Part shown: positions 13,149-56,331 of the stretch, piece by piece
Numbering within the stretch: position 1 is the stretch's first letter
Layout of the letters: every line of letters begins with the position of its first letter
DNA from: Aphrocallistes beatrix
Taxonomy: Eukaryota > Porifera > Hexactinellida > Sceptrulophora > Aphrocallistidae
Assembly: GCA_963281255.1 (NCBI GenBank)
Contig: OY725494.1
Coordinates: 1,749,934-1,813,933 of the forward strand
Reading direction: 5' to 3'
DNA length: 64,000 nt
Notes under the pieces: generated by a model
Databases searched by the model: none
What the model was told of the DNA's origin: nothing
What the model saw: only the letters and a program-made list of their open reading frames with translations
Position numbers and translations under genes: made by a program

Positions 13149-13215
13149 TTAAGGATGAAATCTTGGTAAACAATGTTGCAAGTTGTAATGTAAGATTTTT
13201 TCAATATTAAATATA

Positions 13216-13805
13216 CAGTAAAACCTCTCAGATCCGGGCAGTCCCGTCCGAACAGTGTCCGGATCTTAGAATTGTCCGGATCTCAGAATTTTGTCCAGTA
13301 TAGCATGCGAAACCGGTAAGTGTACAGTAATGGAAACTTATATGGCAGCGAGTTCTATTTCCTTATAAAGCGGCGATTTGTACACTCTTTTGGGAGGATA
13401 AGAGTGCTTTTTTCTCTTTGACATTCGGAGAAATCAGCAGATAATTGAAAGTTTACTGATTCAATTCCTCCATATAAGTAATTAAGTGCAGTAGATATTT
13501 ATGCAAGCTGCATATACTTCTCAGTTTAACATGGACTGGGTTTAATTTCATTATCCAGGTATCAAGCTTGTTGTGCACACAAGAAGCATATTAGTTGAAT
13601 GCTATTCTGAGAACCGGACAGCTCTAAATTTCAACGCTCTGCGTTCCGGACATTATCCATTTATTTTTAACCCATAATTTTTGTGAATTTTTGTGTCGAA
13701 TATTTTCATTGGTAGTAGAAAAAAATTATTAAATTTCTAGGAAAAATATGCCCGGTCTAGGGAGGTGTCCGGATCTAAGAAATCCGGATCTCGAAGGTTC
13801 GACTG
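13216..13805. mobile_element. pogo/Tigger-type MITE, 590 bp
   Basis: The ends are CAGTAAAACCTCTCAGATCC and, inward from the right, CAGTCGAACCTTCGAGATCC, flanked by TA. Subterminal GTCCGGATCT motifs are repeated inward at both ends. It lies between the hAT gene and the putative hAT terminus, so it probably inserted into that element. Confidence 0.75.
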
Positions 13806-27047: not shown

Positions 27048-28621
27048 TTATACGACACTACATATATTACAAAAAAAGTTAGGGACTTTTTCATCAGTGT
27101 CTTCAAGCCCTACACATGGTTTGTGAAACCATTTAAGGCACTTGGGGCATTCGACCATATGCTGAAAGGCTTGGGCTGGAAGATGGCATAAACACCATAA
27201 CTTGATCTTTAAATCTTTTCTAAGATTGGTTGTCATCCGAGAACGCAACACTATGCTCTCTATCTTTGGAAATGGTGTTAAGATTTCGCTGTTAAAGCAA
27301 TCTATGAGATGAGATCTCATTTTTACTTGTCTCCAGCAATCTTGGGTTGGGTCACCTCCAATTGCTATGGACAAACAGACTGCGGCTGCAAATAAGCCAC
27401 AATCCACCCCACCTCTTTGCTGCTGAATAGGAGCAAGATTTACTATCATCTCAGTATCATTCCCATACAGAAAGGCTAACTGGATAGCCAGATTATCAGG
27501 AATTCTCCCCGTAGTCATTGAATCATAGAGGGTTACATTCCCTTCTAGATCAATCCTGGAGCAGACCCAGTGCAGTGTACCATCATGATGGATCTGAATG
27601 CTAGGGAGTACTAGGTACTGGGCGATATTGCAGTAAATATGTTAATATAACCATATACTATAACAGATATAATTTCTAGGTCTACCAAACTCACACAAAA
27701 TGCGTTCAAGGTTGTGTCTGTCAGAAAAGGGTTGCGATTGGACAGTTCAGAGATAGATAGACTCCTTACTTTTGATGTAATGGCAGGAGTGAATGTAAGT
27801 ATAGGATTCAATGGTTTGGCTCTGAGTAATGTAACAAGACCGGATGGTGCGGTAGGTGGTTGAGGATTTGAAATGAGTTCATTAGAAGCGATTTCGGGTT
27901 GTCGAAAACTTGGAAAGAATGTATCATTACTCGTATCAACATCTGACTCTGGGTGTATTACTATTTTAGTGCTTTTAGAAGTATCAAGAGGAGATCGGTC
28001 TCGGCAGTTACGATAACCAGATTCTTCAGAAGAGCTTGGAGTTATGTGAGATCTAGATCGGTAGTTGATAGAAGCTCGCTCTTTCAGTGTAGATCCCTTA
28101 CAAGAATGCAATATTTTGCGAAGATTTATCTTAGTCGACCGTTTTATGTTTTCAAAAGGGACACATTCCGGCCAAAAGGACGGCTTGAGAGCAGCATCAT
28201 TCCAAAAAGACATATCCTTGCCTAAAATAACGCTTGTCAATTGAATAAAAAATTAATCATTTAAATAGTAAAAGGTCCTTGACTTACCAATTGCTTCCTT
28301 TGTAATTTCTGAAACAAGTTTTCTCAGAGTTGGAACATTGAGATTATCGATATCTCCGTCTAAGAGCTTGTAAATTCCATGGTCATGAGCTGGCTTTGCA
28401 TTTGCGGACTCAATTATCTTACTTGTTACAAGAGTTCTTGAAATTTCATCATTTTTCTCCGCTATGAACTTCTGGAAATTTGCAGGACCCAAAGAACCGA
28501 GCTTACCATGCCATGAAAAAACAGCTCCAGCACATTCTCCTGTAACCGAACGAAACTGTTTCAGGGTATTCGTCAATACTATTACAGCATTAGCCTTGGT
28601 CATCCTGGGTATCTTAGGCAT
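27048..28621 (-). CDS. Ulp1-like (C48) protease with PHD finger
   Basis: Three exons: 28621-28288, 28221-27695, 27617-27048. Both introns are GT-AG and the spliced frame is intact, giving 476 aa. The protease module is C-terminal to a 287-residue region with no recognised domain. The C48 triad is visible: His303 in GTLHWVC, Asp319 in LYDSM, and Cys360 in GGVDCGLF, with a Gln-rich stretch just before the Cys that can supply the oxyanion glutamine. Residues about 429-473 form a PHD-type zinc finger (CLC, CPKC, WFHKPC, CNIC). C48 proteases cleave SUMO or related modifiers; PHD fingers often read histone tails. KDZ and other large DNA transposons are known to carry Ulp1-like genes, so a role in modifying host or transposase SUMO state is inferred. 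Start is the first ATG of the open frame. No damage seen. Confidence 0.85.
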
Positions 28622-29619: not shown

Positions 29620-30150
29620 AGATATGACATCGGCCTCTTTCGGGACCATAGAGAGATATTATGCCCGAACTTTACGTATAATATGCGACATCTCACGAAT
29701 AAATGGTCGGATCCGAACAAATTATTTTTTGAAACGATCAGGAAATTATTTCTGATCCAATGATTCTAAACATATGATATCAAATGGGCGATTTCTCGAG
29801 CATTATATAAATGAACTCCCCTATAGAACTATTTTGATTGGATTTTATTTGGCCTTTCTTCTAAATGTTCGTGTTGTATAATATCCAAAGGGGCCAAAAC
29901 AATGTTAAAGTCCATATCATTTAAAAAATATCAAATAAGTTAAAAACTAATTGATGAATACTTCAAATATCTCCAATAATTTTTAAATTTTTAGTAACGC
30001 TAAAATTTAGGGGTTAACTGATAAAATCAAAATAAATACCGTCCAACGAGTACTATCAGATGGTAGACCGCTCAGTAATACAATCGAATTAACAATAAAA
30101 AAGTTTTTTTTTACATTCAGGCAAAGTTTTTCGAGGGCAGTATCCTTAAT
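29620..30150. mobile_element. pogo-like non-autonomous element, partial
   Basis: Same body as 1-420 (AACTCCCCTATAGAACT, GGGGCCAAAACAATG, GGGGTTAACT, TTCGAGGGCAGTATCCTTA). The terminal repeat is cut off and abuts a CRE-MITE fragment. Confidence 0.5.
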
Positions 30151-30152
30151 AA

Positions 30153-30395
30153 GAATGTGCACATTAATATCTCAAAAAAATAACGACTAATCATTCTGTA
30201 ATGACGTCATCATTATGCATCAAAAAATTGACAAATTTTGTGATCTTTCGAGTGATATCGATTATAACAGTAAACATAAGTATTTATAGATGTTATCTAC
30301 CCTAATCAATGTGGTCCCAGGCCCCCGAAGTGCGCCACCGGCAGACACAAAGTGTCTGCCAACCGCGCCGCGCCGCGCTGCGAAGCGCGTTTGTA
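30153..30395 (+). mobile_element. CRE-MITE fragment
   Basis: AATGACGTCATCATTATGC, GATATCGATTATAACAGTA, then the GC-rich end with GCAGACACAAAGTGTCTGCC and CGCGCCGCGCTGCGAAGCGC. The first half is missing. Confidence 0.75.
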
Positions 30396-35151: not shown

Positions 35152-35914
35152 GGGCGTTCAATTTGTTCCAGGCCCAACTTTATATGTTAAAAGGCAACAA
35201 AGACAAAGTATTTTCAATTCGTTTAATGAATTCGTTGCAGGATTATGCTTCGACTGGTATGTTGGTTGCTGTGATAATTATTAGTATAATTACTGTGGTT
35301 AGCACACGATTATAGACCCGGTTTACTGTCCTTATTAAAAATTTCGCCATTGAATTTTGCCATTGAAAAGACTGGAAAAACAATTTGTATGGATAAAATT
35401 CCTCAAAATTGTTAAATAATATCGTTGAAATGTAAAATAATCAAGAAGGTATGGAAAAGATACAAACGGGAGGTGTTCAGTTGAATATTTTTGTTATAAA
35501 AAGATGTTATACTAATAATGGTGGATTTATCCCAATTTTTGCCACTTAAAAGTGGGACAAAAGTGTCAGTGAATTGAAAAAAAACATTATTCCCCCAGCT
35601 TAAAATTAGAAGAGTTCAAAGAAGTCAATCTCTATGTTATTCGATTTGCAGAATTCAATGGAGAGATTAGTTTTAATCTAAGTTTGCTCAGAACTGAAAT
35701 ACATCAAATATTACGCTAAAACTCTCCATAAGTACAAGGACCGTAAACCGGGTGTATAAATTGTGTGTGCTAACCAAAATAATTATATTATCACAGCAAA
35801 TCAAATTGCCAGTAGAAAGATAATCCTCTAACGAATACAATAAAAGAATTTAAAATACATTGTTTCAGTTGCCTTTCGAATTATAAAGTTGGACCTGGAA
35901 CATATTGAACGCCC
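35152..35914. mobile_element. mariner-type MITE with long inverted arms
   Basis: Starts GGGCGTTCAATTTGTTCCAG and ends with a close complement, flanked by TA at 35,150-35,151 and 35,915-35,916. The arms run about 180 bp, as far as ACCCGGTTTACTGTCC (35,318) and its partner CCGTAAACCGGGT (35,741). No ORF. Confidence 0.7.
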
Positions 35915-35944: not shown

Positions 35945-36330
35945 TCAGCCTCAGTCAACTCCGCTTATTGAGAATACCGCCCTCGAAAAACTCAACGTAA
36001 AAAAAACCGGGAACATTTTTTATTGTTAATTCCATTGTATAACTGGCGGTCTACCATCTGATTGTAGTAGTTGGAAGGGAATTTTTTGATTTTTATGTGT
36101 TAACACCCTAAAGTTTAGCGTTACTAAAAATTTAAAAATTATTACGAGTGTTATCTTAGCGACGGATTCAAAATCCTCACTAAAACGCAAATAACTCAAA
36201 AAGTATGCGTTCTATGTTAAAAATAATTATACCAGTGGAAAGAGGAGCATTTGGGTATTTCATAAAACGCCTCAAATGTGTCAAATTTCTTAAGGTGACT
36301 TAGCATTTTGATAGTGAATCCTTGTCTCAG
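35945..36330. repeat. pogo-like end and adjacent dispersed repeat
   Basis: 35,949-36,150 is an inverted piece of the element at 1-501, beginning CAGTCAACTCCGCTTATTGA with CCGCCCTCGAAAAACT. 36,132-36,330 (CTTAGCGACGGATTCAAAAT, CAAATGTGTCAAATTTC) recurs inverted at 42,990-43,170 and its two array copies. Confidence 0.6.
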
Positions 36331-36649
36331 TTTTTTGTGAATATCTCTGAAAGTAATTAGAAGAAATAGTTTTCCTTTGGATGACACATATTTCTCAAAA
36401 TGGGTATTACGCATTTTAATTTTCAAGCAAAAATATTAACTTTTTAGAAAATTATTAACGTCTGAATTTTTGCAATATAAATCACATAGAAAAAATTTGC
36501 CCCAGTTTTGCCATCAAACTCTTGAAATATTGATGCTAGAAATATTTCCTTTGGAACACATTTATTTACGTTTCGATCTATTTTATATTTCAAATATCGT
36601 CTCAAAATATTGATTTTTAAAAGAATTATGAACATTTGAAATGTTAGTG

Positions 36650-36845
36650 AATATGCTCAATTGGAGGAAATCGGTCAATCAGGACAACCGATTATTGGGA
36701 CAAGTCTCCTGGAACGGAATGGTCCCCATACTTATAAGCCAAAACTAAATTTCAAAGGTTAATTGGAATCCCTGCTTAATCGGGACAAAATTTCCAGGAC
36801 CAAGTTGTCCAGATTAATTGAGTAACGTATTTAAATTGACACAGT
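36650..36845. mobile_element. degenerate pogo-type MITE
   Basis: Repeated GGTTAATTGGAATCCCTGCT and GGACAA motifs, resembling 60,670-60,830. Ends are eroded. Confidence 0.45.
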
Positions 36846-37235
36846 ATGTATAATCTCAATTTTTATTATGCATAAAAACAATATTAGAACATGTAAACAA
36901 GCATGAGCAAACTGTTCAAACAAATCAATAAATGAATAATCAGAAGTAAATGTTAACGTCGCATCGGTCAGCTTGAAATACAAGTTGGATTGCATTAATA
37001 CAGATACGAATTCTCAGAACAAGAAGGTAGTAATCATCTTCATTGTGAAATGCGTCAATCATTTCTGGAATGTATAAACAGGAAATAAGTCGAGGAGTCA
37101 TCTTGTCATCATATCCAAATCTAAAACCATCAAAAGAATAGTGATAATTGAATGATTGTGTGATAAGACGGTTTTAATGTTTGGAAATAAAAACAATATT
37201 TAACAACGAAATGGTAAAATTAATAATGCGTTGAT

Positions 37236-38004
37236 CTATTTACATAGGGCATTCCAAAAGACCTCGTCCCAAATCTGTATCTCAAATGAGAGTGAAAATA
37301 GGATATTTTCAATTTGTCCATTGTATTCCTTAAGGGATCAGCTTCCAATTTATATATTGCTTTATTTTAAAAGGACAATTATTGTGGTTCCTATATTAGA
37401 TTTTTGTGCATCGGTTTAGGGTAGTGTCGAAAAGTTGGAATCTTCCCATTGAAAATGGCTTAAAACTAAATTTGGAGAATAAAAGTTGTGAAAATCGTAG
37501 AATAAGGTCATTAAAAGGTTAAATAATTAAGAACCAATGTGAAAAAGTAAACGGGAGGTATTCAACAGTATTGCTCGAGTTGAAAAAATATCATGCCACT
37601 TTTAGTGGATTTTTTGTCAATTTTCGCCACTCAAAAAGTGGGACAAAAATGGTAGTACACCACTTCAAAACACAATTATTCCCTCAGCCTCAAACTATAA
37701 TACTTCAGAGAATTCAATCTATATGTTAGTTGATGCGTAGAATTGGATGGCGTGATCAGTTTTAATCTAAATCTGCTCAGAACTGAAATATATCAAAGGG
37801 AACCCCAAAAATCACGTTCAAAGGCAGTGCCCTAAACCGATGCACAAAAATCTAATATAGGAACCACAATAATTGTCCTTTTAAAATAAACCAATATATA
37901 AATTGGAAGCTGATCCTCTAAGGAATACAATGGACAAATTGAAAATATCCTATTTTCACTCTCATTTGAAATACAGATTTGGGACGAGAACTTTTGGAAT
38001 TTTT
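37236..38004. mobile_element. foldback/MITE with arms of about 170 bp
   Basis: GGGCATTCCAAAAGACCTCG and AATCTGTATCTCAAATGAGA on the left are mirrored at 37,960-38,004. The match extends to TTGTGCATCGGTTTAGGG at about 37,422 and its complement at 37,850. Layout and interior phrases (GGGACAAAA, TCTGCTCAGAACTGAAAT) resemble the 35,152-35,914 element, so both belong to one diverged family. Confidence 0.75.
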
Positions 38005-38270
38005 GTAAACATACCCGAATGGTGTAAGAATTCTTGATAAGAGAGTATGGGCGATATATATCAGAAATGATCCAAAATGAATTTAATGGAGTTTAGCTAG
38101 GAAACTAAGCTAATGAGGTTATAAAAGATAAGAATTAAAAAAAGGTACATAAATATATATATACGTACATATAACATGCTAATAACATACATGCATTTGT
38201 AGAAAAATAAACTAAAGAAAAACTGAAGCAATATCATAACTGGACATAAATAAAGTCCTTAAGAGTGTGA

Positions 38271-41200
38271 CTATATTAATGATAAACTGGACTTGACAGA
38301 GAGAATTGGTTCGTAATGATTCACTAAATTTTGAATATAAATTCCATTCGGGGTTGGTTCTTTCATTAGTTCACCAAAATTCGATCCCTTCCCTGAAAAT
38401 CCAACCCAACGTGTCCCAGAAGGTCCCAAGAATACCCACATATCTATGTTAAACAGTAATGAAGTTGCGAAAACCTCCAAATCTGTAGCCCAACTCCCTA
38501 ACCTATTCATTCCCGTCTTATTCACCCAATCTCTAACATTCCTATAATTACCTTGTGTATAGACATATTTCGTTCGTAAAAAAGTGTTACAGTTAGTATT
38601 CAATTTTCCAAGCATATTTTCAACTAGCAATGACCTTATCTGCTTATGGTAACATTTGCTCCCAGTTAATATGAATGAAATTGTCGAAAAATAACAATTG
38701 CCATCCCCAGCTATGTTTTCCGTCAAGTAGGGCTTATAATCAAACAAGGATTCTTTTTCTTCCATGCAATTATAAGAATAAGCGACAGAATTATGAAATT
38801 GCAAATTCCACTTTTTACACATAAAAATTTGCCACTCAGTGTGGGGCGGACGAAAACTAGGTAAAATATTTCGCACCATTCCTATTTCAACTATTTCGTC
38901 ATCAGTTATTACGGAAGCTATTTTTGTGTCAGTTACTTCAATATCCTTACGTAGCTTTGACAACTTTTCACGCTTCTTTGGGATAAATTTAGATATTTTC
39001 TTTTTATCTATATTATTTTTATATTTATTTTCTCTTTTAGTTTTATTTTTTAGAGAGAATTTAAATTGTTTTGAATTTAAATAACCACAAAGACGTTTAT
39101 TTTTCCTTGACCACTCTTCACTACAGTGTTCTTCTGAAACGTCTCTTGGGCGTTTAAGATTTTTAAATACTTTAGTTGCTCTAGGATGGAAAGCAAAGTT
39201 AAAGGCTGAAATCCTACTTTCAATACTTGGATACAATATTTTAATCAGATTTGTTTTTGATCTTAAAATGTCTAACTTAAGAATACGCATCCAGTTTGCG
39301 TTACTATAATGTGAGTAATTATTACCAACTGAAATACTTTTGGGGCCTAATATAATTCCACTCCATAATGGTAAAATTGGCAAATAGAAAGTTAATAAAT
39401 ATTCTATGATATCAGGATGATAACAAATATTTGAATCAAATTTTTCGGTAGTATTGGAAATGTTATTTTTGATGTCATCTTGACAATTTCTGGCTATTTT
39501 ACGAAATATCTACCAAATGGAGACTTCTCTTTATAAGTTTTAACATCCTTATCTATTATTGAATTGGTATCTGTTATATCAGTTTCTAAATCATTACTTA
39601 TATCAGGTGAAATTTGGGAATCCTCACTAATGTAAGATTCTAACTTATCAATATTAGACAAAACTGATTCATCAAGATATTTACTCATAAATACTCGACA
39701 TAAGGAATTAAAATATATCATTTATTTTAGATAATTCAGTACAGCGTACCATAAATCCTATCACATGTAGAAATAGTCTCCTTACATCTTCATTTATTTT
39801 AAATTTCTTATTTATGTGAAATACGATGCCGTGCATTAGATGAGCGGAACATAAATGTACAATAACGTTTAAATCTTTAACAGAAGAGTTTAAACCTGAG
39901 CAATTCCAACAAGTATCAAGATAGCTTTCTATGTTACAATTGAGAAAAACATTACAAGTACTGTGAATTAAAGCCCAGCTAAAATCTACTTCTATTTGTC
40001 CTATAAAATTTTCTTGGCATCAAGGAACCATTTATGCAAGAAATAGCTTATTTCAGCACTAGTATGAGCTGAACTGATCATCTCAGCTAGGGGTACTGGG
40101 CTAGTGGTATAAGTAGGGTGTTGTACAGTTAAAGCGTAGTAAAATACCTTTTTCTGAGAGGGTTCAATCCTTCTAACAATTGACCCGGTAGCATCTAAAT
40201 GGAGAATTATACTTGTTTTTTTAAAACTTTTCAAAATGTTTATTTGTTCTTCTGTGTACAGATGAATAATGAAAGGATTATGTCCCAAAGACTGGATGTA
40301 ACCCCTTACATGGCAACCAACTAAAGTTTCCTGATAGTGTTGCTGCAAATTAATCAAATCACTCCAATTATCATTTGAATATCTTTGTAAGCTAGACAAA
40401 TCAAATTTAGCTTTTCTAAGAACAGATGCACTTTTTATTTTATTAAAATTCCCGCTATTAAGGGCAAATTGAGTATTCTTACTTAATTCGAATTGATTGT
40501 AAAAGTATTTACTTATGGATTTTTCTGTCAATTGTGTTGCAACTTCTAACCTAAGTGTATTTGATAAATTTCGAGAATGGACAATTTTGTCATCCGAATG
40601 CTCCTCAGATAAGGAACCAGAAACTAGATATTCTACAACTATATAGTTATTAGGTTTAAGCTCAAATGTATCCTTTTTAATTGTGAAAGTATACTTGAGG
40701 CAGTTTTTGAATTTACATTCAGCTTTCGCTCTGAAAAAACAGTTATTATTTTTCCTACTATTCAGCTTATTTATTCTTTTGTATTTAAAACTAAGTACGC
40801 ATATAACAATTCCTTCTAATTTGGAACTAAACAAGTTAGTCCAGTCTTTTGAAAATATGACTGAATCGCCCTTAATCTGGCAAACTTTATTCCATTCATC
40901 TAAGTTAATTAAAAATTCACCTCGATTTTCATTGCAAATTAATTCGTCTTCAACAATAATTTCATTGACGACAGCATCATCTCCTAGTGTTACAAACAAT
41001 TCAGGACCTGCAGATATATTGGATATAACATTAGAATCTGGTGTTATATCCAATATATCTGCAGCTGGACTCAAATCAGTAGGCAGCGAGGTTGGTTGGA
41101 AAACAGAAGAACTACACTTAATCAGTTCAGTAAGTGATAAATGAAAAGATGTTAATAAGCACAAATTATCTCGTGCTGACATGATAAAATTAACTAACAA

Positions 41201-42040
41201 TTCTAGTTTTTCAACAGGAATTAATATATAAGGATTGTCAAAAAGTTCCAACACTTGACAACGTATTTTTTCAACCAATACCCAGGCAGTTAGTAGACTA
41301 TTATTTCCCTTAACTAAACTAACATGTTCAAAATTTTCGAACAAAAGATCGCTAAACTTATGGGAACTTTCGTAGAGTTCATCATTCACTAGAATAAACT
41401 CGCCATTAATATAGGGGCAGTCTAAGCCAAAAAAATTGACTGCACTCAACCATAACAGATTATCGCAGTTAGCGTAGGTCCAATGGTGAGTATCAGTGGT
41501 CCCTGAATGAGGAGGGGATGAAGCCATTGCAATCCTCATACTATGGAGGCCAGGATCTCTACAACCAGATGCCAACAATGCTAAAAATTGGTCATCAAAC
41601 ACTACTCTCTCTAAACTACTAATACTAAAATCTAATTTACTAAACCTATTACTACTAAAAACTAATTCACGAAACCTATTACTACTGAGATCTAAACTAT
41701 CATTATAATAAGGAGCTGATTCTAATTTAGGAGAGATGTGTTCGATGGCCAAACAGGGAATATCGGAATAGCTAGTAATGGGCTTACTACTGTTGCTGGG
41801 AGTAACTTTTTCAAGTCCTGATTTAACGAGTTGCTGAAAGTTAGCTCGGTTCAGTCTCCATTTGATCGAGAGGGAATTGCGCTTTGAGTCTTTGTTTTTC
41901 CCAAATATTAGAGTTGATAATTTCTCCCATATAGATTTCGGACTACTCCTACATCCTTTGTCCAGAGCAGGTTTCACGGTCCCGAAATCCCTGTATCCCA
42001 ACTGAAGAAGGGCACGGGCGAATTCATCAGGAGAAGCCAT
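38271..42040 (-). CDS. DDE-type transposase joined to an OTU-like protease domain
   Basis: An intronless frame of about 1,250 codons with three one-base shifts, all at short T runs of the coding strand (near 40,005, 39,711 and 39,504). The start is ATG at 42,040 (MASPDEFARALLQLGY). In order: about 430 residues without known domain, with a leucine-rich repeat-like stretch (SSNRFRELVFSSNRF); a zinc-binding-like segment CFFRAKAECKFKNC; a transposase core with LHLDATGSIV (first Asp, about residue 616) and PLAEMISSAHTSAEI; after the first shift VDFSWALIHS (second Asp) and CSAHLM; after the others LPILPLWSGI and SNANWMRILKLD, typical of the end of this transposase type. The last 145 residues form an OTU-like cysteine protease: Asp and Cys in GDGNCYFSTIS, His in NLVNHYEPIL. 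OTU enzymes usually remove ubiquitin. I recall similar transposase cores from cnidarian and fish multi-copy proteins; superfamily uncertain. Confidence 0.75.
41008..41064. repeat. perfect 23-bp inverted repeat inside the transposase gene
   Basis: CTGCAGATATATTGGATATA (with ACA following) at 41,008-41,030 and its exact complement at 41,042-41,064, loop 11 bp. Repeated in the other two units. Confidence 0.9.
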
Positions 42041-42990
42041 GGATAGAATCTTGTATATTACTAAATAAGATGTATTATATATAAATAGTATTCCGTCAAC
42101 AAACACTCAATTACTTTTCATTAAGATATCATATTGACTAAAATCTCGATGAACAATCGGCTGGTCTCGTAAAATTGTCAGGTTAAATACACTCCGGTTG
42201 GAATCATATGGAAACATTGTATTTGTAACACATATTTGTAAGCTTACTGCATACAAAACGTATGTGAGTAGATTTGTTTGATTTAGAACAGCCAATGAGA
42301 TAAATATGTCATGTGTTATATGGTGTTAAATAATTAATAATTTGCAGGTTTTAAATAATCACCGGGGTTCGTAAAAATACACGGTAGTGGATTATTGGGG
42401 GGAGTACATTAATTAATAATTTTCAATTCTAATTAACGGTTTACCTTTGGTTAAAACTTTTGAAAATAATTGCTCTTCAAAGAAAATGTCGAGAACAAGA
42501 GAAAAGTGAAACTCGAAAATAATTGCTCTTCAAAGAAAAAGTCGAAAAATATTGTGGAAGCTAAAAATGATCAGAATTGAAATATTCCAAGAATTTGCGA
42601 GATAGTCTATATATACTATAGTTGTAGTAAGCTTATACTCAATATCTTACGTAAACATGAAGCTACTGAATAATAACTGACATAGTAGTGCTTTGATGCG
42701 ATGACCAATATTATCAATTATTGCTAAGAACAATACGATCCAATTTATCGCAATTAGAACTCTATTTATTTGTTGTAGTCACCATTAGCTGTAGTATGGT
42801 TTTAAGTCATTTATTTGATTTACACTGCATAAGAATGTCTTCATCACTCAATATCTTAGGTAAACATGGAAGGTACTGAATAATAACTGACATAGTAGTG
42901 CTTTGATGTAATGACCAATATTATTATTACAAATTAATGAAAAATACAAGTAATTGATTCGAATTGATACCTTACTTTACAACTTGAGAC
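42041..42990. other. upstream region of the transposase gene
   Basis: Holds a 62-codon minus-strand ORF (42,107-42,295, weak) and two diverged direct repeats (CTCAATATCTTACGTAAACATG at about 42,639 and CTCAATATCTTAGGTAAACA at about 42,846, each followed by ACTGAATAATAACTGACATA). It is also present in units 2 and 3. Presumably the promoter lies here, but I cannot point to a motif. Confidence 0.4.
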
Positions 42991-43490
42991 AAGAATTCAC
43001 TATCAAAATGCTAAGTCACCTTAAGAAATTTGACACATTTGAGGCGTTTTATGAAATACCCAAATGCTCCTCTTTCCACTGGTATAATTATTTTTAACAT
43101 AGAACGCATACTTTTTGAGTTATTTGCGTTTTAGTGAGGATTTTGAATCCGTCGCTAAGATAACACTCGTAAAATTATTGGAGGTTTTTGACGCATTCAT
43201 CAATTAGTTTCTTACTTATTTGATATCTTTGATATGGACCTCGAAAGTGTTTTGGCCCCATTGAAGATTATATAACACAAAGATTTAGAAAGACAGGAAG
43301 AGCCAAATACAATCAAAATATATTTAGCGATCATTGGATCAGAAATAAAATTCTGATCGTTTCAAAAAAAAATTTCGGATGTTCAGAACGGACCATTTGT
43401 TCGTGAGATATCGATTATAGGTAAAGTTCGAGCATAATATCTCTCTATGGTCCAGAAAGATGTCGATGTAATATAATAAAAACTATTGAA
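42990..43490. repeat. dispersed repeats inside array unit 1
   Basis: 42,990-43,170 matches 36,132-36,330 inverted; 43,160-43,490 is a pogo-like body as at 1-420, inverted. The same in units 2 (48,311-48,811) and 3 (53,632-54,132). Confidence 0.6.
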
Positions 43491-43491
43491 G

Positions 43492-44045
43492 ATAAATCTT
43501 TACTATTAAAACTCGATGAATATATATGTATATATCTCTATCTCTGTAACGAATTGATTGAAGAAACTGCCCGGCGCAGAAGCTGATTTTTGGCATGTTG
43601 GAGTCTTTTGGCTATGACTCCAGTAAGTTCTGAGTTCAGACCGAAATGTCGACTCATCATGGAATTATGATGTCATTGTCACATTTTTAAAAGTTAAGCA
43701 ATACAGTTATTCGAGCATAACTCAGCCATTATAGGAGATAGAAGGTTGAAATTTTAATTGAATCTGTATACTAACATATAACAGATATGATGCAGCTATC
43801 ATCAAAAAATGATGACTCATCACTTTGTTATGACGTCATCATTACTCATCAAATTTTTTAAAAAATTGATAAATTTGGTGATTTTTCGTGCGATATCGAT
43901 TATAACAGTAGGACAGACGTATTTAGAGATGTTATTTCCCTTATAATTGATCAATGTGACCACAGGCGCCCAAAGGGCACCTCCGGCAGACACACAGTGT
44001 CCGCCAGCCGCGCAGCGCAAGCAAGCGAAGCGCGCCGCTTGTAAT
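43492..44045 (+). mobile_element. CRE-MITE, full-length, array unit 1
   Basis: Most complete copy in the window: CTTTACTATTAAAACTCGAT, then a TA/TC tract, AACGAATTGATTGAAGAAAC, GATGACTCATCACT, TGACGTCA at 43,831 and the GC-rich end GCCAGCCGCGCAGCGCAAG. The ORF of 96 codons over its end is not a gene. Copies in units 2 (48,813-49,366) and 3 (54,134-54,687). Confidence 0.85.
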
Positions 44046-44059
44046 ATATTATAATCTTT

Positions 44060-44955
44060 AAGGTTGGTCTTTCCCATGGGACACTTGTTTTTTGCTAAAA
44101 ATGTGCCCAAATTTCCTTTTTATCATTTTTAGATTCTAATAGGGGTTCTAAGCAATAATTCTGATTTTTGTAACTCCAGCCCCAATATATCTCCACTTCG
44201 AGCTACTTGTATCACCTGTTGTCGCTCTAAAAACGACACATTTTAAATGCGAAATGTCCCACAGCTATAACTTCTTTTAACATTGCCAGATCATCTTTTT
44301 AATGCTGAACTCATGCTCCTCAGCACTAGATTTCGAGTAATTTGATATATATATTGACCATATTTGAAACATTTTTGTTTGACCTTGCCTAGCAACGGCC
44401 AGGAATTATTTCACATTCCTGACCGTTGCTAGGAAAAGGCAACCAAAATATTCTCCAAATATAGTCAATATATATATATCAAATTGCTAGAAATTTAGTG
44501 CTGAGCACGATTTCAGTATTGAAATAACTGGCATAGTCAAATAAAGTTATAGATATAGGATTTCGGCGGATACTATCGGACATGGTCATTTTTGGGTCCA
44601 CAGTCATAACTGACAACTTTTTCACACTTTTTAAAGGTGTCATGATGTAAATATATTTGATATGCCATATTTTGAAGTTAAGTACTACTATAAGTTGTTG
44701 ATTTAGGATGTTTGGATGTTATTTAATACTAGGATACAGTAAAAACTAATGGAAATCAAGCCTTTCCGAAGAAAATTGCTTTATAGCATGTTTTTAGCAC
44801 TCAAAAATTTAATTTTACAAAGGAGGAATCTTTAGTCACAAAGGTCGTAGAGTAAAAGACTCGACGGTTTTGGAAAGATCTCGTCACGTAGAACAAAATG
44901 ATAGAGAGGATTTTCGATATTGTACTTTAGAAAAACGTTAAAATATTTTACTTAC
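44060..44955. repeat. foldback family copy, array unit 1
   Basis: Inverted relative to 31,640-32,580. The hairpin at about 44,340-44,505 is built on CCTAGCAACGGCCAGGAAT and TTCCTGACCGTTGCTAGG with ATATTGACCATATTTG arms. Repeated in units 2 and 3 at +5,321 and +10,642. Confidence 0.75.
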
Positions 44956-45094
44956 GATAATCTGTTTCTAAATATTGTCGCATCGAAATTGGAATGAAAA
45001 ATAGGTTGGATGGAATAAAAATAGATTAAAAATTCAAAACCAACCTTAATGATAGGATATATGCGAAAATATATAGATTCCTCAAATATTTCTT

Positions 45095-45386
45095 TGTCTA
45101 ATAATGAATACAAGCGCGCTTCGCTTGTTTGCGCTGTGCTGCTGGCGGACACTTTGTGTCTGCCGGGGGCGCCCTTTGGGCGCCTGGGGTCACTTTGAAT
45201 AAATATAAGGGAGATAACATCTCTAAATACGTTTGTCCTACTATTATAATCGATATCGCAAGAAAAATCACCAAATTTATCAATTTTTATAATTTTGATG
45301 AGTAACGATGACGTCATAACAAAGTGATGAGTCATCATTTTTTGATGAAAGTCGCATCATATGTGAGGTATGTTAGTATACATATT
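45095..45386 (-). mobile_element. CRE-MITE half, cut by the duplication junction
   Basis: GC-rich end first (CAAGCGCGCTTCGCTTG), then TGACGTCA at 45,310 and a stop at GTTAGTATACATATT, where unit 2 begins. The same truncation occurs at 50,707; the unit 3 copy is whole (55,751-56,270). Confidence 0.85.
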
Positions 45387-47361
45387 GAGCTGAACTGATC
45401 ATCTCAGCTAGGGGTACTGGGCTAGTGGTATAAGTAGGGTGTTGTACAGTTAAAGCGTAGTAAAATACCTTTTTCTGAGAGGGTTCAATCCTTCTAACAA
45501 TTGACCCGGTAGCATCTAAATGGAGAATTATACTTGTTTTTTTAAAACTTTTCAAAATGTTTATTTGTTCTTCTGTGTACAGATGAATAATGAAAGGATT
45601 ATGTCCCAAAGACTGGATGTAACCCCTTACATGGCAACCAACTAAAGTTTCCTGATAGTGTTGCTGCAAATTAATCAAATCACTCCAATTATCATTTGAA
45701 TATCTTTGTAAGCTAGACAAATCAAATTTAGCTTTTCTAAGAACAGATGCACTTTTTATTTTATTAAAATTCCCGCTATTAAGGGCAAATTGAGTATTCT
45801 TACTTAATTCGAATTGATTGTAAAAGTATTTACTTATGGATTTTTCTGTCAATTGTGTTGCAACTTCTAACCTAAGTGTATTTGATAAATTTCGAGAATG
45901 GACAATTTTGTCATCCGAATGCTCCTCAGATAAGGAACCAGAAACTAGATATTCTACAACTATATAGTTATTAGGTTTAAGCTCAAATGTATCCTTTTTA
46001 ATTGTGAAAGTATACTTGAGGCAGTTTTTGAATTTACATTCAGCTTTCGCTCTGAAAAAACAGTTATTATTTTTCCTACTATTCAGCTTATTTATTCTTT
46101 TGTATTTAAAACTAAGTACGCATATAACAATTCCTTCTAATTTGGAACTAAACAAGTTAGTCCAGTCTTTTGAAAATATGACTGAATCGCCCTTAATCTG
46201 GCAAACTTTATTCCATTCATCTAAGTTAATTAAAAATTCACCTCGATTTTCATTGCAAATTAATTCGTCTTCAACAATAATTTCATTGACGACAGCATCA
46301 TCTCCTAGTGTTACAAACAATTCAGGACCTGCAGATATATTGGATATAACATTAGAATCTGGTGTTATATCCAATATATCTGCAGCTGGACTCAAATCAG
46401 TAGGCAGCGAGGTTGGTTGGAAAACAGAAGAACTACACTTAATCAGTTCAGTAAGTGATAAATGAAAAGATGTTAATAAGCACAAATTATCTCGTGCTGA
46501 CATGATAAAATTAACTAACAATTCTAGTTTTTCAACAGGAATTAATATATAAGGATTGTCAAAAAGTTCCAACACTTGACAACGTATTTTTTCAACCAAT
46601 ACCCAGGCAGTTAGTAGACTATTATTTCCCTTAACTAAACTAACATGTTCAAAATTTTCGAACAAAAGATCGCTAAACTTATGGGAACTTTCGTAGAGTT
46701 CATCATTCACTAGAATAAACTCGCCATTAATATAGGGGCAGTCTAAGCCAAAAAAATTGACTGCACTCAACCATAACAGATTATCGCAGTTAGCGTAGGT
46801 CCAATGGTGAGTATCAGTGGTCCCTGAATGAGGAGGGGATGAAGCCATTGCAATCCTCATACTATGGAGGCCAGGATCTCTACAACCAGATGCCAACAAT
46901 GCTAAAAATTGGTCATCAAACACTACTCTCTCTAAACTACTAATACTAAAATCTAATTTACTAAACCTATTACTACTAAAAACTAATTCACGAAACCTAT
47001 TACTACTGAGATCTAAACTATCATTATAATAAGGAGCTGATTCTAATTTAGGAGAGATGTGTTCGATGGCCAAACAGGGAATATCGGAATAGCTAGTAAT
47101 GGGCTTACTACTGTTGCTGGGAGTAACTTTTTCAAGTCCTGATTTAACGAGTTGCTGAAAGTTAGCTCGGTTCAGTCTCCATTTGATCGAGAGGGAATTG
47201 CGCTTTGAGTCTTTGTTTTTCCCAAATATTAGAGTTGATAATTTCTCCCATATAGATTTCGGACTACTCCTACATCCTTTGTCCAGAGCAGGTTTCACGG
47301 TCCCGAAATCCCTGTATCCCAACTGAAGAAGGGCACGGGCGAATTCATCAGGAGAAGCCAT
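45373..47361 (-). pseudogene. truncated transposase, array unit 2
   Basis: Same protein as the gene starting at 42,040 for 658 residues, through PLAEMISSA; the frame then enters the CRE-MITE and stops after a few codons. It has the first catalytic Asp motif but lacks the second Asp region, the C-terminal core and the OTU domain. Upstream DNA is identical to unit 1 as far as seen, so it may still be transcribed; a product could act as a repressor, but that is speculation. Confidence 0.85.
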
Positions 47362-50300
47362 GGATAGAATCTTGTATATTACTAAATAAGATGTATTATA
47401 TATAAATAGTATTCCGTCAACAAACACTCAATTACTTTTCATTAAGATATCATATTGACTAAAATCTCGATGAACAATCGGCGGGTCTCGTAAAATTGTC
47501 AGGTTAAATACACTCCGGTTGGAATCATATGGAAACATTGTATTTGTAACACATATTTGTAAGCTTACTGCATACAAAACGTATGTGAGTAGATTTGTTT
47601 GATTTAGAACAGCCAATGAGATAAATATGTCATGTGTTATATGGTGTTAAATAATTAATAATTTGCAGGTTTTAAATAATCACCGGGGTTCGTAAAAATA
47701 CACGGTAGTGGATTATTGGGGGGAGTACATTAATTAATAATTTTCAATTCTAATTAACGGTTTACCTTTGGTTAAAACTTTTGAAAATAATTGCTCTTCA
47801 AAGAAAATGTCGAGAACAAGAGAAAAGTGAAACTCGAAAATAATTGCTCTTCAAAGAAAAAGTCGAAAAATATTGTGGAAGCTAAAAATGATCAGAATTG
47901 AAATATTCCAAGAATTTGCGAGATAGTCTATATATACTATAGTTGTAGTAAGCTTATACTCAATATCTTACGTAAACATGAAGCTACTGAATAATAACTG
48001 ACATAGTAGTGCTTTGATGCGATGACCAATATTATCAATTATTGCTAAGAACAATACGATCCAATTTATCGCAATTAGAACTCTATTTATTTGTTGTAGT
48101 CACCATTAGCTGTAGTATGGTTTTAAGTCATTTATTTGATTTACACTGCATAAGAATGTCTTCATCACTCAATATCTTAGGTAAACATGGAAGGTACTGA
48201 ATAATAACTGACATAGTAGTGCTTTGATGTAATGACCAATATTATTATTACAAATTAATGAAAAATACAAGTAATTGATTCGAATTGATACCTTACTTTA
48301 CAACTTGAGACAAGAATTCACTATCAAAATGCTAAGTCACCTTAAGAAATTTGACACATTTGAGGCGTTTTATGAAATACCCAAATGCTCCTCTTTCCAC
48401 TGGTATAATTATTTTTAACATAGAACGCATACTTTTTGAGTTATTTGCGTTTTAGTGAGGATTTTGAATCCGTCGCTAAGATAACACTCGTAAAATTATT
48501 GGAGGTTTTTGACGCATTCATCAATTAGTTTCTTACTTATTTGATATCTTTGATATGGACCTCGAAAGTGTTTTGGCCCCATTGAAGATTATATAACACA
48601 AAGATTTAGAAAGACAGGAAGAGCCAAATACAATCAAAATATATTTAGCGATCATTGGATCAGAAATAAAATTCTGATCGTTTCAAAAAAAAATTTCGGA
48701 TGTTCAGAACGGACCATTTGTTCGTGAGATATCGATTATAGGTAAAGTTCGAGCATAATATCTCTCTATGGTCCAGAAAGATGTCGATGTAATATAATAA
48801 AAACTATTGAAGATAAATCTTTACTATTAAAACTCGATGAATATATATGTATATATCTCTATCTCTGTAACGAATTGATTGAAGAAACTGCCCGGCGCAG
48901 AAGCTGATTTTTGGCATGTTGGAGTCTTTTGGCTATGACTCCAGTAAGTTCTGAGTTCAGACCGAAATGTCGACTCATCATGGAATTATGATGTCATTGT
49001 CACATTTTTAAAAGTTAAGCAATACAGTTATTCGAGCATAACTCAGCCATTATAGGAGATAGAAGGTTGAAATTTTAATTGAATCTGTATACTAACATAT
49101 AACAGATATGATGCAGCTATCATCAAAAAATGATGACTCATCACTTTGTTATGACGTCATCATTACTCATCAAATTTTTTAAAAAATTGATAAATTTGGT
49201 GATTTTTCGTGCGATATCGATTATAACAGTAGGACAGACGTATTTAGAGATGTTATTTCCCTTATAATTGATCAATGTGACCACAGGCGCCCAAAGGGCA
49301 CCTCCGGCAGACACACAGTGTCCGCCAGCCGCGCAGCGCAAGCAAGCGAAGCGCGCCGCTTGTAATATATTATAATCTTTAAGGTTGGTCTTTCCCATGG
49401 GACACTTGTTTTTTGCTAAAAATGTGCCCAAATTTCCTTTTTATCATTTTTAGATTCTAATAGGGGTTCTAAGCAATAATTCTGATTTTTGTAACTCCAG
49501 CCCCAATATATCTCCACTTCGAGCTACTTGTATCACCTGTTGTCGCTCTAAAAACGACACATTTTAAATGCGAAATGTCCCACAGCTATAACTTCTTTTA
49601 ACATTGCCAGATCATCTTTTTAATGCTGAACTCATGCTCCTCAGCACTAGATTTCGAGTAATTTGATATATATATTGACCATATTTGAAACATTTTTGTT
49701 TGACCTTGCCTAGCAACGGCCAGGAATTATTTCACATTCCTGACCGTTGCTAGGAAAAGGCAACCAAAATATTCTCCAAATATAGTCAATATATATATAT
49801 CAAATTGCTAGAAATTTAGTGCTGAGCACGATTTCAGTATTGAAATAACTGGCATAGTCAAATAAAGTTATAGATATAGGATTTCGGCGGATACTATCGG
49901 ACATGGTCATTTTTGGGTCCACAGTCATAACTGACAACTTTTTCACACTTTTTAAAGGTGTCATGATGTAAATATATTTGATATGCCATATTTTGAAGTT
50001 AAGTACTACTATAAGTTGTTGATTTAGGATGTTTGGATGTTATTTAATACTAGGATACAGTAAAAACTAATGGAAATCAAGCCTTTCCGAAGAAAATTGC
50101 TTTATAGCATGTTTTTAGCACTCAAAAATTTAATTTTACAAAGGAGGAATCTTTAGTCACAAAGGTCGTAGAGTAAAAGACTCGACGGTTTTGGAAAGAT
50201 CTCGTCACGTAGAACAAAATGATAGAGAGGATTTTCGATATTGTACTTTAGAAAAACGTTAAAATATTTTACTTACGATAATCTGTTTCTAAATATTGTC

Positions 50301-50693
50301 GCATCGAAATTGGAATGAAAAATAGGTTGGATGGAATAAAAATAGATTAAAAATTCAAAACCAACCTTAATGATAGGATATATGCGAAAATATATAGATT
50401 CCTCAAATATTTCTTTGTCTAATAATGAATACAAGCGCGCTTCGCTTGTTTGCGCTGTGCTGCTGGCGGACACTTTGTGTCTGCCGGGGGCGCCCTTTGG
50501 GCGCCTGGGGTCACTTTGAATAAATATAAGGGAGATAACATCTCTAAATACGTTTGTCCTACTATTATAATCGATATCGCAAGAAAAATCACCAAATTTA
50601 TCAATTTTTATAATTTTGATGAGTAACGATGACGTCATAACAAAGTGATGAGTCATCATTTTTTGATGAAAGTCGCATCATATGTGAGGTATG

Positions 50694-52682
50694 TTAGTAT
50701 ACATATTGAGCTGAACTGATCATCTCAGCTAGGGGTACTGGGCTAGTGGTATAAGTAGGGTGTTGTACAGTTAAAGCGTAGTAAAATACCTTTTTCTGAG
50801 AGGGTTCAATCCTTCTAACAATTGACCCGGTAGCATCTAAATGGAGAATTATACTTGTTTTTTTAAAACTTTTCAAAATGTTTATTTGTTCTTCTGTGTA
50901 CAGATGAATAATGAAAGGATTATGTCCCAAAGACTGGATGTAACCCCTTACATGGCAACCAACTAAAGTTTCCTGATAGTGTTGCTGCAAATTAATCAAA
51001 TCACTCCAATTATCATTTGAATATCTTTGTAAGCTAGACAAATCAAATTTAGCTTTTCTAAGAACAGATGCACTTTTTATTTTATTAAAATTCCCGCTAT
51101 TAAGGGCAAATTGAGTATTCTTACTTAATTCGAATTGATTGTAAAAGTATTTACTTATGGATTTTTCTGTCAATTGTGTTGCAACTTCTAACCTAAGTGT
51201 ATTTGATAAATTTCGAGAATGGACAATTTTGTCATCCGAATGCTCCTCAGATAAGGAACCAGAAACTAGATATTCTACAACTATATAGTTATTAGGTTTA
51301 AGCTCAAATGTATCCTTTTTAATTGTGAAAGTATACTTGAGGCAGTTTTTGAATTTACATTCAGCTTTCGCTCTGAAAAAACAGTTATTATTTTTCCTAC
51401 TATTCAGCTTATTTATTCTTTTGTATTTAAAACTAAGTACGCATATAACAATTCCTTCTAATTTGGAACTAAACAAGTTAGTCCAGTCTTTTGAAAATAT
51501 GACTGAATCGCCCTTAATCTGGCAAACTTTATTCCATTCATCTAAGTTAATTAAAAATTCACCTCGATTTTCATTGCAAATTAATTCGTCTTCAACAATA
51601 ATTTCATTGACGACAGCATCATCTCCTAGTGTTACAAACAATTCAGGACCTGCAGATATATTGGATATAACATTAGAATCTGGTGTTATATCCAATATAT
51701 CTGCAGCTGGACTCAAATCAGTAGGCAGCGAGGTTGGTTGGAAAACAGAAGAACTACACTTAATCAGTTCAGTAAGTGATAAATGAAAAGATGTTAATAA
51801 GCACAAATTATCTCGTGCTGACATGATAAAATTAACTAACAATTCTAGTTTTTCAACAGGAATTAATATATAAGGATTGTCAAAAAGTTCCAACACTTGA
51901 CAACGTATTTTTTCAACCAATACCCAGGCAGTTAGTAGACTATTATTTCCCTTAACTAAACTAACATGTTCAAAATTTTCGAACAAAAGATCGCTAAACT
52001 TATGGGAACTTTCGTAGAGTTCATCATTCACTAGAATAAACTCGCCATTAATATAGGGGCAGTCTAAGCCAAAAAAATTGACTGCACTCAACCATAACAG
52101 ATTATCGCAGTTAGCGTAGGTCCAATGGTGAGTATCAGTGGTCCCTGAATGAGGAGGGGATGAAGCCATTGCAATCCTCATACTATGGAGGCCAGGATCT
52201 CTACAACCAGATGCCAACAATGCTAAAAATTGGTCATCAAACACTACTCTCTCTAAACTACTAATACTAAAATCTAATTTACTAAACCTATTACTACTAA
52301 AAACTAATTCACGAAACCTATTACTACTGAGATCTAAACTATCATTATAATAAGGAGCTGATTCTAATTTAGGAGAGATGTGTTCGATGGCCAAACAGGG
52401 AATATCGGAATAGCTAGTAATGGGCTTACTACTGTTGCTGGGAGTAACTTTTTCAAGTCCTGATTTAACGAGTTGCTGAAAGTTAGCTCGGTTCAGTCTC
52501 CATTTGATCGAGAGGGAATTGCGCTTTGAGTCTTTGTTTTTCCCAAATATTAGAGTTGATAATTTCTCCCATATAGATTTCGGACTACTCCTACATCCTT
52601 TGTCCAGAGCAGGTTTCACGGTCCCGAAATCCCTGTATCCCAACTGAAGAAGGGCACGGGCGAATTCATCAGGAGAAGCCAT
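50694..52682 (-). pseudogene. truncated transposase, array unit 3
   Basis: Identical in translation to the unit 2 copy, with the same junction and stop. No independent decay has accumulated, which argues that the duplication is very young or artificial. Confidence 0.85.
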
Positions 52683-55600
52683 GGATAGAATCTTGTATAT
52701 TACTAAATAAGATGTATTATATATAAATAGTATTCCGTCAACAAACACTCAATTACTTTTCATTAAGATATCATATTGACTAAAATCTCGATGAACAATC
52801 GGCGGGTCTCGTAAAATTGTCAGGTTAAATACACTCCGGTTGGAATCATATGGAAACATTGTATTTGTAACACATATTTGTAAGCTTACTGCATACAAAA
52901 CGTATGTGAGTAGATTTGTTTGATTTAGAACAGCCAATGAGATAAATATGTCATGTGTTATATGGTGTTAAATAATTAATAATTTGCAGGTTTTAAATAA
53001 TCACCGGGGTTCGTAAAAATACACGGTAGTGGATTATTGGGGGGAGTACATTAATTAATAATTTTCAATTCTAATTAACGGTTTACCTTTGGTTAAAACT
53101 TTTGAAAATAATTGCTCTTCAAAGAAAATGTCGAGAACAAGAGAAAAGTGAAACTCGAAAATAATTGCTCTTCAAAGAAAAAGTCGAAAAATATTGTGGA
53201 AGCTAAAAATGATCAGAATTGAAATATTCCAAGAATTTGCGAGATAGTCTATATATACTATAGTTGTAGTAAGCTTATACTCAATATCTTACGTAAACAT
53301 GAAGCTACTGAATAATAACTGACATAGTAGTGCTTTGATGCGATGACCAATATTATCAATTATTGCTAAGAACAATACGATCCAATTTATCGCAATTAGA
53401 ACTCTATTTATTTGTTGTAGTCACCATTAGCTGTAGTATGGTTTTAAGTCATTTATTTGATTTACACTGCATAAGAATGTCTTCATCACTCAATATCTTA
53501 GGTAAACATGGAAGGTACTGAATAATAACTGACATAGTAGTGCTTTGATGTAATGACCAATATTATTATTACAAATTAATGAAAAATACAAGTAATTGAT
53601 TCGAATTGATACCTTACTTTACAACTTGAGACAAGAATTCACTATCAAAATGCTAAGTCACCTTAAGAAATTTGACACATTTGAGGCGTTTTATGAAATA
53701 CCCAAATGCTCCTCTTTCCACTGGTATAATTATTTTTAACATAGAACGCATACTTTTTGAGTTATTTGCGTTTTAGTGAGGATTTTGAATCCGTCGCTAA
53801 GATAACACTCGTAAAATTATTGGAGGTTTTTGACGCATTCATCAATTAGTTTCTTACTTATTTGATATCTTTGATATGGACCTCGAAAGTGTTTTGGCCC
53901 CATTGAAGATTATATAACACAAAGATTTAGAAAGACAGGAAGAGCCAAATACAATCAAAATATATTTAGCGATCATTGGATCAGAAATAAAATTCTGATC
54001 GTTTCAAAAAAAAATTTCGGATGTTCAGAACGGACCATTTGTTCGTGAGATATCGATTATAGGTAAAGTTCGAGCATAATATCTCTCTATGGTCCAGAAA
54101 GATGTCGATGTAATATAATAAAAACTATTGAAGATAAATCTTTACTATTAAAACTCGATGAATATATATGTATATATCTCTATCTCTGTAACGAATTGAT
54201 TGAAGAAACTGCCCGGCGCAGAAGCTGATTTTTGGCATGTTGGAGTCTTTTGGCTATGACTCCAGTAAGTTCTGAGTTCAGACCGAAATGTCGACTCATC
54301 ATGGAATTATGATGTCATTGTCACATTTTTAAAAGTTAAGCAATACAGTTATTCGAGCATAACTCAGCCATTATAGGAGATAGAAGGTTGAAATTTTAAT
54401 TGAATCTGTATACTAACATATAACAGATATGATGCAGCTATCATCAAAAAATGATGACTCATCACTTTGTTATGACGTCATCATTACTCATCAAATTTTT
54501 TAAAAAATTGATAAATTTGGTGATTTTTCGTGCGATATCGATTATAACAGTAGGACAGACGTATTTAGAGATGTTATTTCCCTTATAATTGATCAATGTG
54601 ACCACAGGCGCCCAAAGGGCACCTCCGGCAGACACACAGTGTCCGCCAGCCGCGCAGCGCAAGCAAGCGAAGCGCGCCGCTTGTAATATATTATAATCTT
54701 TAAGGTTGGTCTTTCCCATGGGACACTTGTTTTTTGCTAAAAATGTGCCCAAATTTCCTTTTTATCATTTTTAGATTCTAATAGGGGTTCTAAGCAATAA
54801 TTCTGATTTTTGTAACTCCAGCCCCAATATATCTCCACTTCGAGCTACTTGTATCACCTGTTGTCGCTCTAAAAACGACACATTTTAAATGCGAAATGTC
54901 CCACAGCTATAACTTCTTTTAACATTGCCAGATCATCTTTTTAATGCTGAACTCATGCTCCTCAGCACTAGATTTCGAGTAATTTGATATATATATTGAC
55001 CATATTTGAAACATTTTTGTTTGACCTTGCCTAGCAACGGCCAGGAATTATTTCACATTCCTGACCGTTGCTAGGAAAAGGCAACCAAAATATTCTCCAA
55101 ATATAGTCAATATATATATATCAAATTGCTAGAAATTTAGTGCTGAGCACGATTTCAGTATTGAAATAACTGGCATAGTCAAATAAAGTTATAGATATAG
55201 GATTTCGGCGGATACTATCGGACATGGTCATTTTTGGGTCCACAGTCATAACTGACAACTTTTTCACACTTTTTAAAGGTGTCATGATGTAAATATATTT
55301 GATATGCCATATTTTGAAGTTAAGTACTACTATAAGTTGTTGATTTAGGATGTTTGGATGTTATTTAATACTAGGATACAGTAAAAACTAATGGAAATCA
55401 AGCCTTTCCGAAGAAAATTGCTTTATAGCATGTTTTTAGCACTCAAAAATTTAATTTTACAAAGGAGGAATCTTTAGTCACAAAGGTCGTAGAGTAAAAG
55501 ACTCGACGGTTTTGGAAAGATCTCGTCACGTAGAACAAAATGATAGAGAGGATTTTCGATATTGTACTTTAGAAAAACGTTAAAATATTTTACTTACGAT

Positions 55601-55750
55601 AATCTGTTTCTAAATATTGTCGCATCGAAATTGGAATGAAAAATAGGTTGGATGGAATAAAAATAGATTAAAAATTCAAAACCAACCTTAATGATAGGAT
55701 ATATGCGAAAATATATAGATTCCTCAAATATTTCTTTGTCTAATAATGAA

Positions 55751-56331
55751 TACAAGCGCGCTTCGCTTGTTTGCGCTGTGCTGCTGGCGGACACTTTGTG
55801 TCTGCCGGGGGCGCCCTTTGGGCGCCTGGGGTCACTTTGAATAAATATAAGGGAGATAACATCTCTAAATACGTTTGTCCTACTATTATAATCGATATCG
55901 CAAGAAAAATCACCAAATTTATCAATTTTTATAATTTTGATGAGTAACGATGACGTCATAACAAAGTGATGAGTCATCATTTTTTGATGAAAGTCGCATC
56001 ATATGTGAGGTATGTTAGTATACATATTCTATTAAAATTTCAGCCTTCTATCTCCAATAATGGCTGAGTTATGCCCGAATAACTGTGTTGCTTAACTTTT
56101 AAAAATGTGACAATGACGTCATAATTCCATGATGAGTCGACATTTTGCTCTGAACTCAGGACTTACTGGAGCCATAGCCAAAATACTCCCACATGCCAAA
56201 AATTAGCTTTCTATGACCGGCAGTTTCTTCAATCAATTCGTTACAGATATATATATATATATATATATATCCTTACTATTAAAACTCGGTGATTGTATAT
56301 ATATATATATCCTTACTATTAAAACTCGATG

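Follow-up and report, generated by a model that had tools for sequence, protein, structure and literature searches.

Whether a DNA transposase can carry an OTU-type deubiquitinase domain at its C-terminus, and if so what kind of transposon encodes it, is the question raised by positions 38271-42040 of the 64,000-nucleotide stretch of Aphrocallistes beatrix contig OY725494.1 analysed here (the window). The coding region at this locus lies within a larger unit, and we consider it very probable that positions 36144-43170 form a single cut-and-paste transposon of the Mutator type (MULE), with one gene whose product would join a DDE transposase, by way of a basic linker, to a C-terminal OTU-like domain.

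The gene and its OTU-like domain

Read on the minus strand from 42040 to 38271, the DNA gives one protein-like reading of about 1257 residues, interrupted solely by three frame changes. Four minus-strand open frames overlap in succession, and the protein-like reading passes from one frame to another at each of the three joints, which bears out the original prediction in its coordinates and in its account of a continuous minus-strand coding region with three shifts. The pieces of the gene, and the domain at its end, are as follows.

42040-40001, minus strand: gene piece 1, with the first ATG used at 42040 (open frame 42106-40001, 701 codons); N-terminal region, and LHLDATGSIV near the end of the frame
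40019-39708, minus strand: gene piece 2, 103 codons; VDFSWALIHS and VHLCSAHLMHG (CxxH)
39721-39494, minus strand: gene piece 3, 75 codons; lies between the CxxH and PLWSGI regions
39509-38271, minus strand: gene piece 4, 412 codons; PLWSGI region, basic linker and OTU-like domain (GDGNCYFSTIS, NHYEPI), with the Pfam OTU match
38300..38708, minus strand: OTU-like cysteine protease domain (Pfam PF02338; C-terminal limit estimated), with the Cys codon of GDGNCYF at 38696-38694 and the His codon of NHYEPI at 38318-38316

In the 1257-residue read-through, LHLDATG begins at residue 613, VDFSWAL at 686, CSAHLMHG at 732, PLWSGI at 892, GDGNCYF at 1113 and NHYEPI at 1242. Among 60 first-order Markov sequences as long as the window, the longest run free of stops had 189 codons, and the frames of 701 and 412 codons are therefore not due to chance. 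A change of one base at each joint is the simplest reading of the three frame changes; introns at these places are unlikely, because the open frames overlap there. As read here, the present copy would be unable to yield the full-length protein on account of the three frame changes, and their occurrence in a gene with no other break suggests either that decay set in very recently or that bases were miscalled.

The C-terminal part was compared with Pfam PF02338 (OTU) in three forms. The match had an E value of 8.3e-4 with the 412-aa frame, 2.7e-4 with the 193-aa C-terminal part (21.9 bits, residues 49-150 against profile positions 2-96 of 128) and 3.3e-3 with the 1257-aa read-through, all three scores being below the Pfam gathering cutoff of 23.3 bits. 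The domain is called 'OTU-like' here because the PF02338 score falls under this curated cutoff. Within the 193-aa part, the Cys of GDGNCYF is residue 53 and the His of NHYEPI residue 179, a domain-like spacing of 126 residues, and we take the two motifs to be the Cys box and His box patterns of OTU proteases. The His box counts as separate support, since it lies outside the PF02338 match (profile 2-96). When the 193 residues were shuffled, OTU was matched in none of nine sequences at E values up to 1, and another family was matched in one of the nine (E = 0.062). Further weak Pfam matches of the gene pieces, TaqI_C (0.082) and NTF2_YvbJ (0.11), were taken as chance.

A search of the sequences of solved structures at E values up to 10 returned three matches, all of them around the Cys box of the OTU-like domain: 6dx2 (E 0.0008), deposited as an RNA-dependent RNA polymerase; 11nq (E 0.42), deposited as RNA-directed RNA polymerase L; and 4bop (E 1.2), deposited as OTU domain-containing protein 1. 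The first two are presumably viral OTU domains. An AlphaFold model of the OTU part made from the single sequence was unusable (mean pLDDT 39, pTM 0.33), and a Foldseek search with it, in which no match reached E <= 0.001 and the best 50 of 201 matches included no OTU, is meaningless given the model. Overall, we identify the C-terminal part as a putative OTU-like domain with good, if not complete, confidence. The original prediction had made the same call, and the lack of any OTU profile match, which it had named as fatal to the call, is not what was found: PF02338 was matched at E = 2.7e-4, though below the curated cutoff, and the match is joined by the Cys and His boxes. Of the two HMM searches it had proposed, the one directed at the OTU part gave a match below cutoff, and the one directed at the core matched no Pfam transposase family.

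It is a separate matter whether the domain works as a deubiquitinase. It may be fused to the transposase and yet have degenerated, serve in ubiquitin binding or as a structural part, or act in self-processing only. This is somewhat unlikely in our judgement, and is the most serious of the alternatives: it draws on the sub-cutoff PF02338 score and on the three frame changes that already disrupt the transposase of the present copy, against which stand the presence of both the Cys and the His box and the want of an OTU match in all nine shuffled sequences.

The fusion joint and the tandem units

Each of the three frame changes is located upstream of the fusion joint. Starting at PLWSGI, the reading stays within the single 412-codon frame until the OTU part ends, with no stop and no change of frame, and passes through a strongly basic linker. 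The claim that a transposase is fused to an OTU domain is hence supported by a joint that sits inside one unbroken frame. The C-terminal part could instead be a separate OTU gene (a second frame, or a captured fragment of a host gene) that adjoins the transposase unfused. In-frame methionines are indeed present between PLWSGI and the OTU part, and extra frames are reported for some MULEs in the consulted portion of PMC6446971; however, the 412 codons cross the joint as one frame, and the MULE precedent MuDR-6_HM is listed in the same source with one ORF (PMC6446971), so that we hold a separate gene to be improbable.

Other copies of the gene in the window are two in number, and both belong to a tandem array. 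At positions 40065-56027 a 5,321-bp unit is present three times in head-to-tail order, and the copies differ at a single position, where the first has T (at 42162) and the second and third have G. Each unit comprises the 5' half of the transposon together with its right flank.

40065-45385, no strand assigned: first unit of the triplication
45386..50706, no strand assigned: second unit; limited to the right element end and the 5' half of the gene, without the OTU part
50707..56027, no strand assigned: third unit, likewise without the OTU part

Both tandem copies of the gene end short of the OTU part and are uninformative on the fusion joint, because they include no more of the gene than its 5' half. 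The triplication is either a very recent tandem event or an assembly artefact. If the latter, the fusion or the frame changes might be artefacts of assembly as well, and the near-perfect agreement of the units, differing at a single position, and a gap of 200 N at 6370-6569 of the same window would fit such an origin. The fusion joint (38271-39509), however, lies outside the triplicated stretch, which starts at 40065, and both element ends agree with each other and with the target site duplication; we regard an artefact as quite improbable.

Element ends and transposon type

The whole transposon, at 36144-43170 (7,027 bp), reaches beyond the coding region named in the original prediction. Its ends were located by the following features.

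36135..36143, no strand assigned: left target site duplication (TSD), AAAATTATT; the identical 9 bp stand at 43171-43179, and the joined flanks align to a repeat at 30153-29830
36144..36329, plus strand: left terminal inverted repeat (TIR), 186 bp; agrees with the reverse complement of 42985-43170 at 185 of 186 positions
42985..43170, minus strand: right TIR, 186 bp; its 22-bp terminus is exact at 43149-43170
43171..43179, no strand assigned: right TSD, AAAATTATT, the same 9 bp as on the left side

The TIRs start with ACGAGTGTTATC, and the element end reads ACGAG. Related repeats at 101-391 and 29830-30153 are both without the transposon and supply an empty site: when the flanks are joined at one AAAATTATT, they align across the joint to the repeat at 30153-29830 (268/334 identical, with 23 gap positions elsewhere), and also to the repeat at 391-101 (237/303), where a one-base gap lies close to the joint. 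The joined flanks match at 48492 and 53813 as well, but there by the right flank alone, within the tandem copies. From the TIRs, the duplicated AAAATTATT and the empty site it therefore follows that the transposon at 36144-43170 was inserted into a copy of this repeat with a 9-bp duplication. Its near-identical TIRs (185/186) suggest that the element moved recently. The 22-bp TIR terminus was not found in viral contigs. With up to 3 mismatches allowed, it occurs at four places in the window: at either end of the element, and where the right end is repeated in the two tandem copies.

Other repeats lie in and around the element. Its 3' non-coding part holds a nested palindromic repeat at 37251-38000, with inverted arms of 176 bp (95%), and the stretch 37438-37947, also inside the element, is 69% similar to 35352-35857. 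Adjoining the right end of the transposon, 43761-44035 and 45114-45386 form the inverted arms (88-91%) of another repeat.

Within the read-through, the candidate core residues are D616, D687 and the C732/H735 pair of a CxxH motif (732-735). The D of LHLDATGSIV is likely to be the first catalytic D, and that of VDFSWALIHS the second. An order of D, D and CxxH, with the CxxH between the second D and the E, is MULE-like. The third catalytic residue (E) of the DDE triad was not located in the read-through; SNANWMRILK, which follows PLWSGI, has no acidic residue where related transposases presumably have one, and loss of the catalytic E in the present copy was considered. Among MULEs as described in the part of PMC6446971 at hand, TSDs measure 8-11 bp and TIRs commonly run to hundreds of bp (14-500 bp in the elements of that study); the present ends, with a 9-bp TSD inside the range of 8-11 bp and TIRs of 186 bp, conform on both counts (PMC6446971).

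Pfam transposase families gave no match to the four gene pieces at E values up to 1, nor to the read-through and two sub-parts of it at E values up to 10, a limit that is narrowed in practice by the HMMER filters, which drop most matches above E ~0.1. NCBIfam and PHROGs, searched with the 701-aa frame and the OTU part, returned nothing useful (one PHROG at E 0.31), and the read-through had no FLYWCH, SWIM or integrase-type Pfam match. The Pfam transposase models may be too distant from the present lineage. Because no Pfam transposase family was matched, the assignment to the MULEs rests on ends and anatomy rather than on sequence membership.

Ginger1, the kind of transposon with a published C-terminal OTU, was the other candidate for the identity of the element. 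Seven of the 16 families listed in Table 1 of PMC2836005 have this domain (four of 12 from Hydra and three of four from other species), and the lengths of up to ~7 kb and TIRs of ~40-270 bp given for Ginger1 in that source overlap those of the present element; however, Ginger1 has 4-bp TSDs (CCGG in 75% or CCGT/ACGG in 24%) against 9 bp here, and 5' ends of TGTNR against ACGAG (PMC2836005), and the integrase-type Pfam match is absent from our read-through. As TSD length and end sequence both differ, a Ginger1 identity is largely refuted and retains only a very slight chance.

Relatives of the Mutator-type element were sought in several collections. In viral contigs (IMG/VR), pattern matches were obtained for each of four queries (1 for the 412-aa frame, 14 for the 701-aa frame, 1 for the 193-aa OTU part and 18 for the 103-aa middle piece), and tblastn confirmed no relative among them. 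In prokaryotic genome contigs (GTDB), none of 11 pattern matches of the OTU part and 64 of the 701-aa frame was confirmed, and phage records held no match to the 412-aa frame. Their absence from viral, prokaryotic and phage collections is as expected for an animal transposon, and is uninformative on how widespread the fusion is. Within the window, with the element and its tandem copies masked, tblastn of the read-through returned nothing at E values up to 1.

Taken in 4-kb blocks, the window has a G+C content of 31-37%, and it contains neither a tRNA nor, at gathering thresholds, an Rfam match. Seventeen of its open frames have at least 150 codons; nine of these, outside the element, were scanned with Pfam at E values up to 0.01, yielding one RRM, one PHD with a weak Ulp1, one weak zinc finger and six frames without a match. 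The RRM protein is a single open frame of 228 codons at 7725-8411 on the plus strand (RRM_1, E 7.1e-15), and we take it to resemble PABPN1/PABP2. At 12788-13282 (minus strand), weak matches to Spin-doc (E 0.0024) and a BED zinc finger (E 0.0049), both below cutoff, perhaps mark a hAT-type remnant. The frame at 27048-27641 (minus strand) matches a PHD finger above cutoff (E 1.1e-5) and, weakly and below cutoff, Ulp1 (Peptidase_C48, E 0.0014); it may belong to a further transposon that bears a protease for ubiquitin-like proteins. In the part of PMC2836005 at hand, Ginger1 and Mutator transposases are depicted with PHD and Ulp1 paired.

Possible role and comparison with known systems

In the mechanism that we propose, the transposase would bind the 186-bp terminal repeats, excise the element and insert it with a 9-bp stagger, while ubiquitin, or a protein like it, would be cleaved by the OTU domain from the transposase complex, or from host chromatin or repair proteins at the site of transposition. 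Of these targets we tentatively place the transposase complex itself first. The domain would then possibly shield the transposase from ubiquitin-driven degradation and prolong its life, which is the putative role envisaged in the original prediction. Host repair or chromatin proteins come second, as a possible target; the authors of the Ginger study suggest a DNA-repair role for Ulp1 and OTU domains, with host repair proteins at the site (PMC2836005, in the part consulted). The remaining probability goes to other roles, for example self-processing or no catalysis at all, of which self-processing is included as a third option because viral OTU homologs are said to process polyproteins too (PMC11071308, in the portion available). 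More speculatively, and with well under even confidence, an animal Mutator lineage may be keeping, under selection, an OTU deubiquitinase fused to its transposase, with ubiquitin on the transposition complex, or ubiquitin deposited during break repair, as its substrate; this would parallel the Ulp1 of other Mutator elements and the OTU of Ginger1 but be independent of them.

No precedent for an OTU on such a transposase could be named in the original prediction, and the suggestion that there is none is not supported, in view of MuDR-6_HM and Ginger1. In Table 1 of Dupeyron et al. 2019 (PMC6446971), group 14 is MuDR-6_HM, from Cnidaria, with one ORF and, as its other motif, 'Ovarian Tumour Gene'; the table writes 'Ovarian Tumour' instead of OTU, and an OTU is absent from its other rows. 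In PMC2836005, HM is the abbreviation for Hydra magnipapillata. MuDR-6_HM is thus like the present element in being a Mutator-superfamily element with one ORF and this motif, and the two differ, as far as the table row allows a comparison, in that the entry gives neither TIR nor TSD whereas 186-bp TIRs and a 9-bp TSD are found here (PMC6446971). A Mutator element with an OTU is not described in the consulted portions of PMC2836005, PMC6875170 and PMC6431247, and OTU in PMC6875170 denotes an operational taxonomic unit. Transposases paired with a ubiquitin protease are thinly documented, and what the present locus adds is an apparently young Mutator-type element with defined ends, a target duplication and an empty site, the ends being defined where the MuDR-6_HM entry gives none.

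Helitrons and Helentrons are not known to have TIRs and TSDs of the present kind. They likewise carry an OTU on a eukaryotic transposon protein (PMC6431247; PMC2836005), and, unlike the present element, they are rolling-circle Rep/helicase elements according to the part of PMC6431247 consulted. Ginger1 shares with our element an OTU cysteine protease at the C-terminus of a DDE transposase, but its transposase is of the Gypsy-integrase type with 4-bp TSDs, in contrast to the 9-bp TSD and candidate D-D-CxxH core of the present element (PMC2836005). Mutator elements with Ulp1 also place a ubiquitin-like-protein protease on Mutator, but a Ulp1 (C48) instead of an OTU (PMC2836005). As regards the ends, Phantom elements, with TSDs of 8-10 bp and TIRs of 18-613 bp or none, are comparable to the present element, although no OTU is listed for them (PMC6446971 Table 1), and 9-bp TSDs, as here, are common in Tm1 (PMC3169594, in the part at hand).

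Since an OTU has been published on Ginger1, on Helitrons/Helentrons and on MuDR-6_HM, the pairing of Mutator with OTU being already in print once, the present element looks like a further example and not a new kind. If transposon types as unrelated as Ginger1, Mutator and Helitron each took up an OTU or a Ulp1, this would suggest that control by ubiquitin or SUMO is a recurrent hurdle for transposons.
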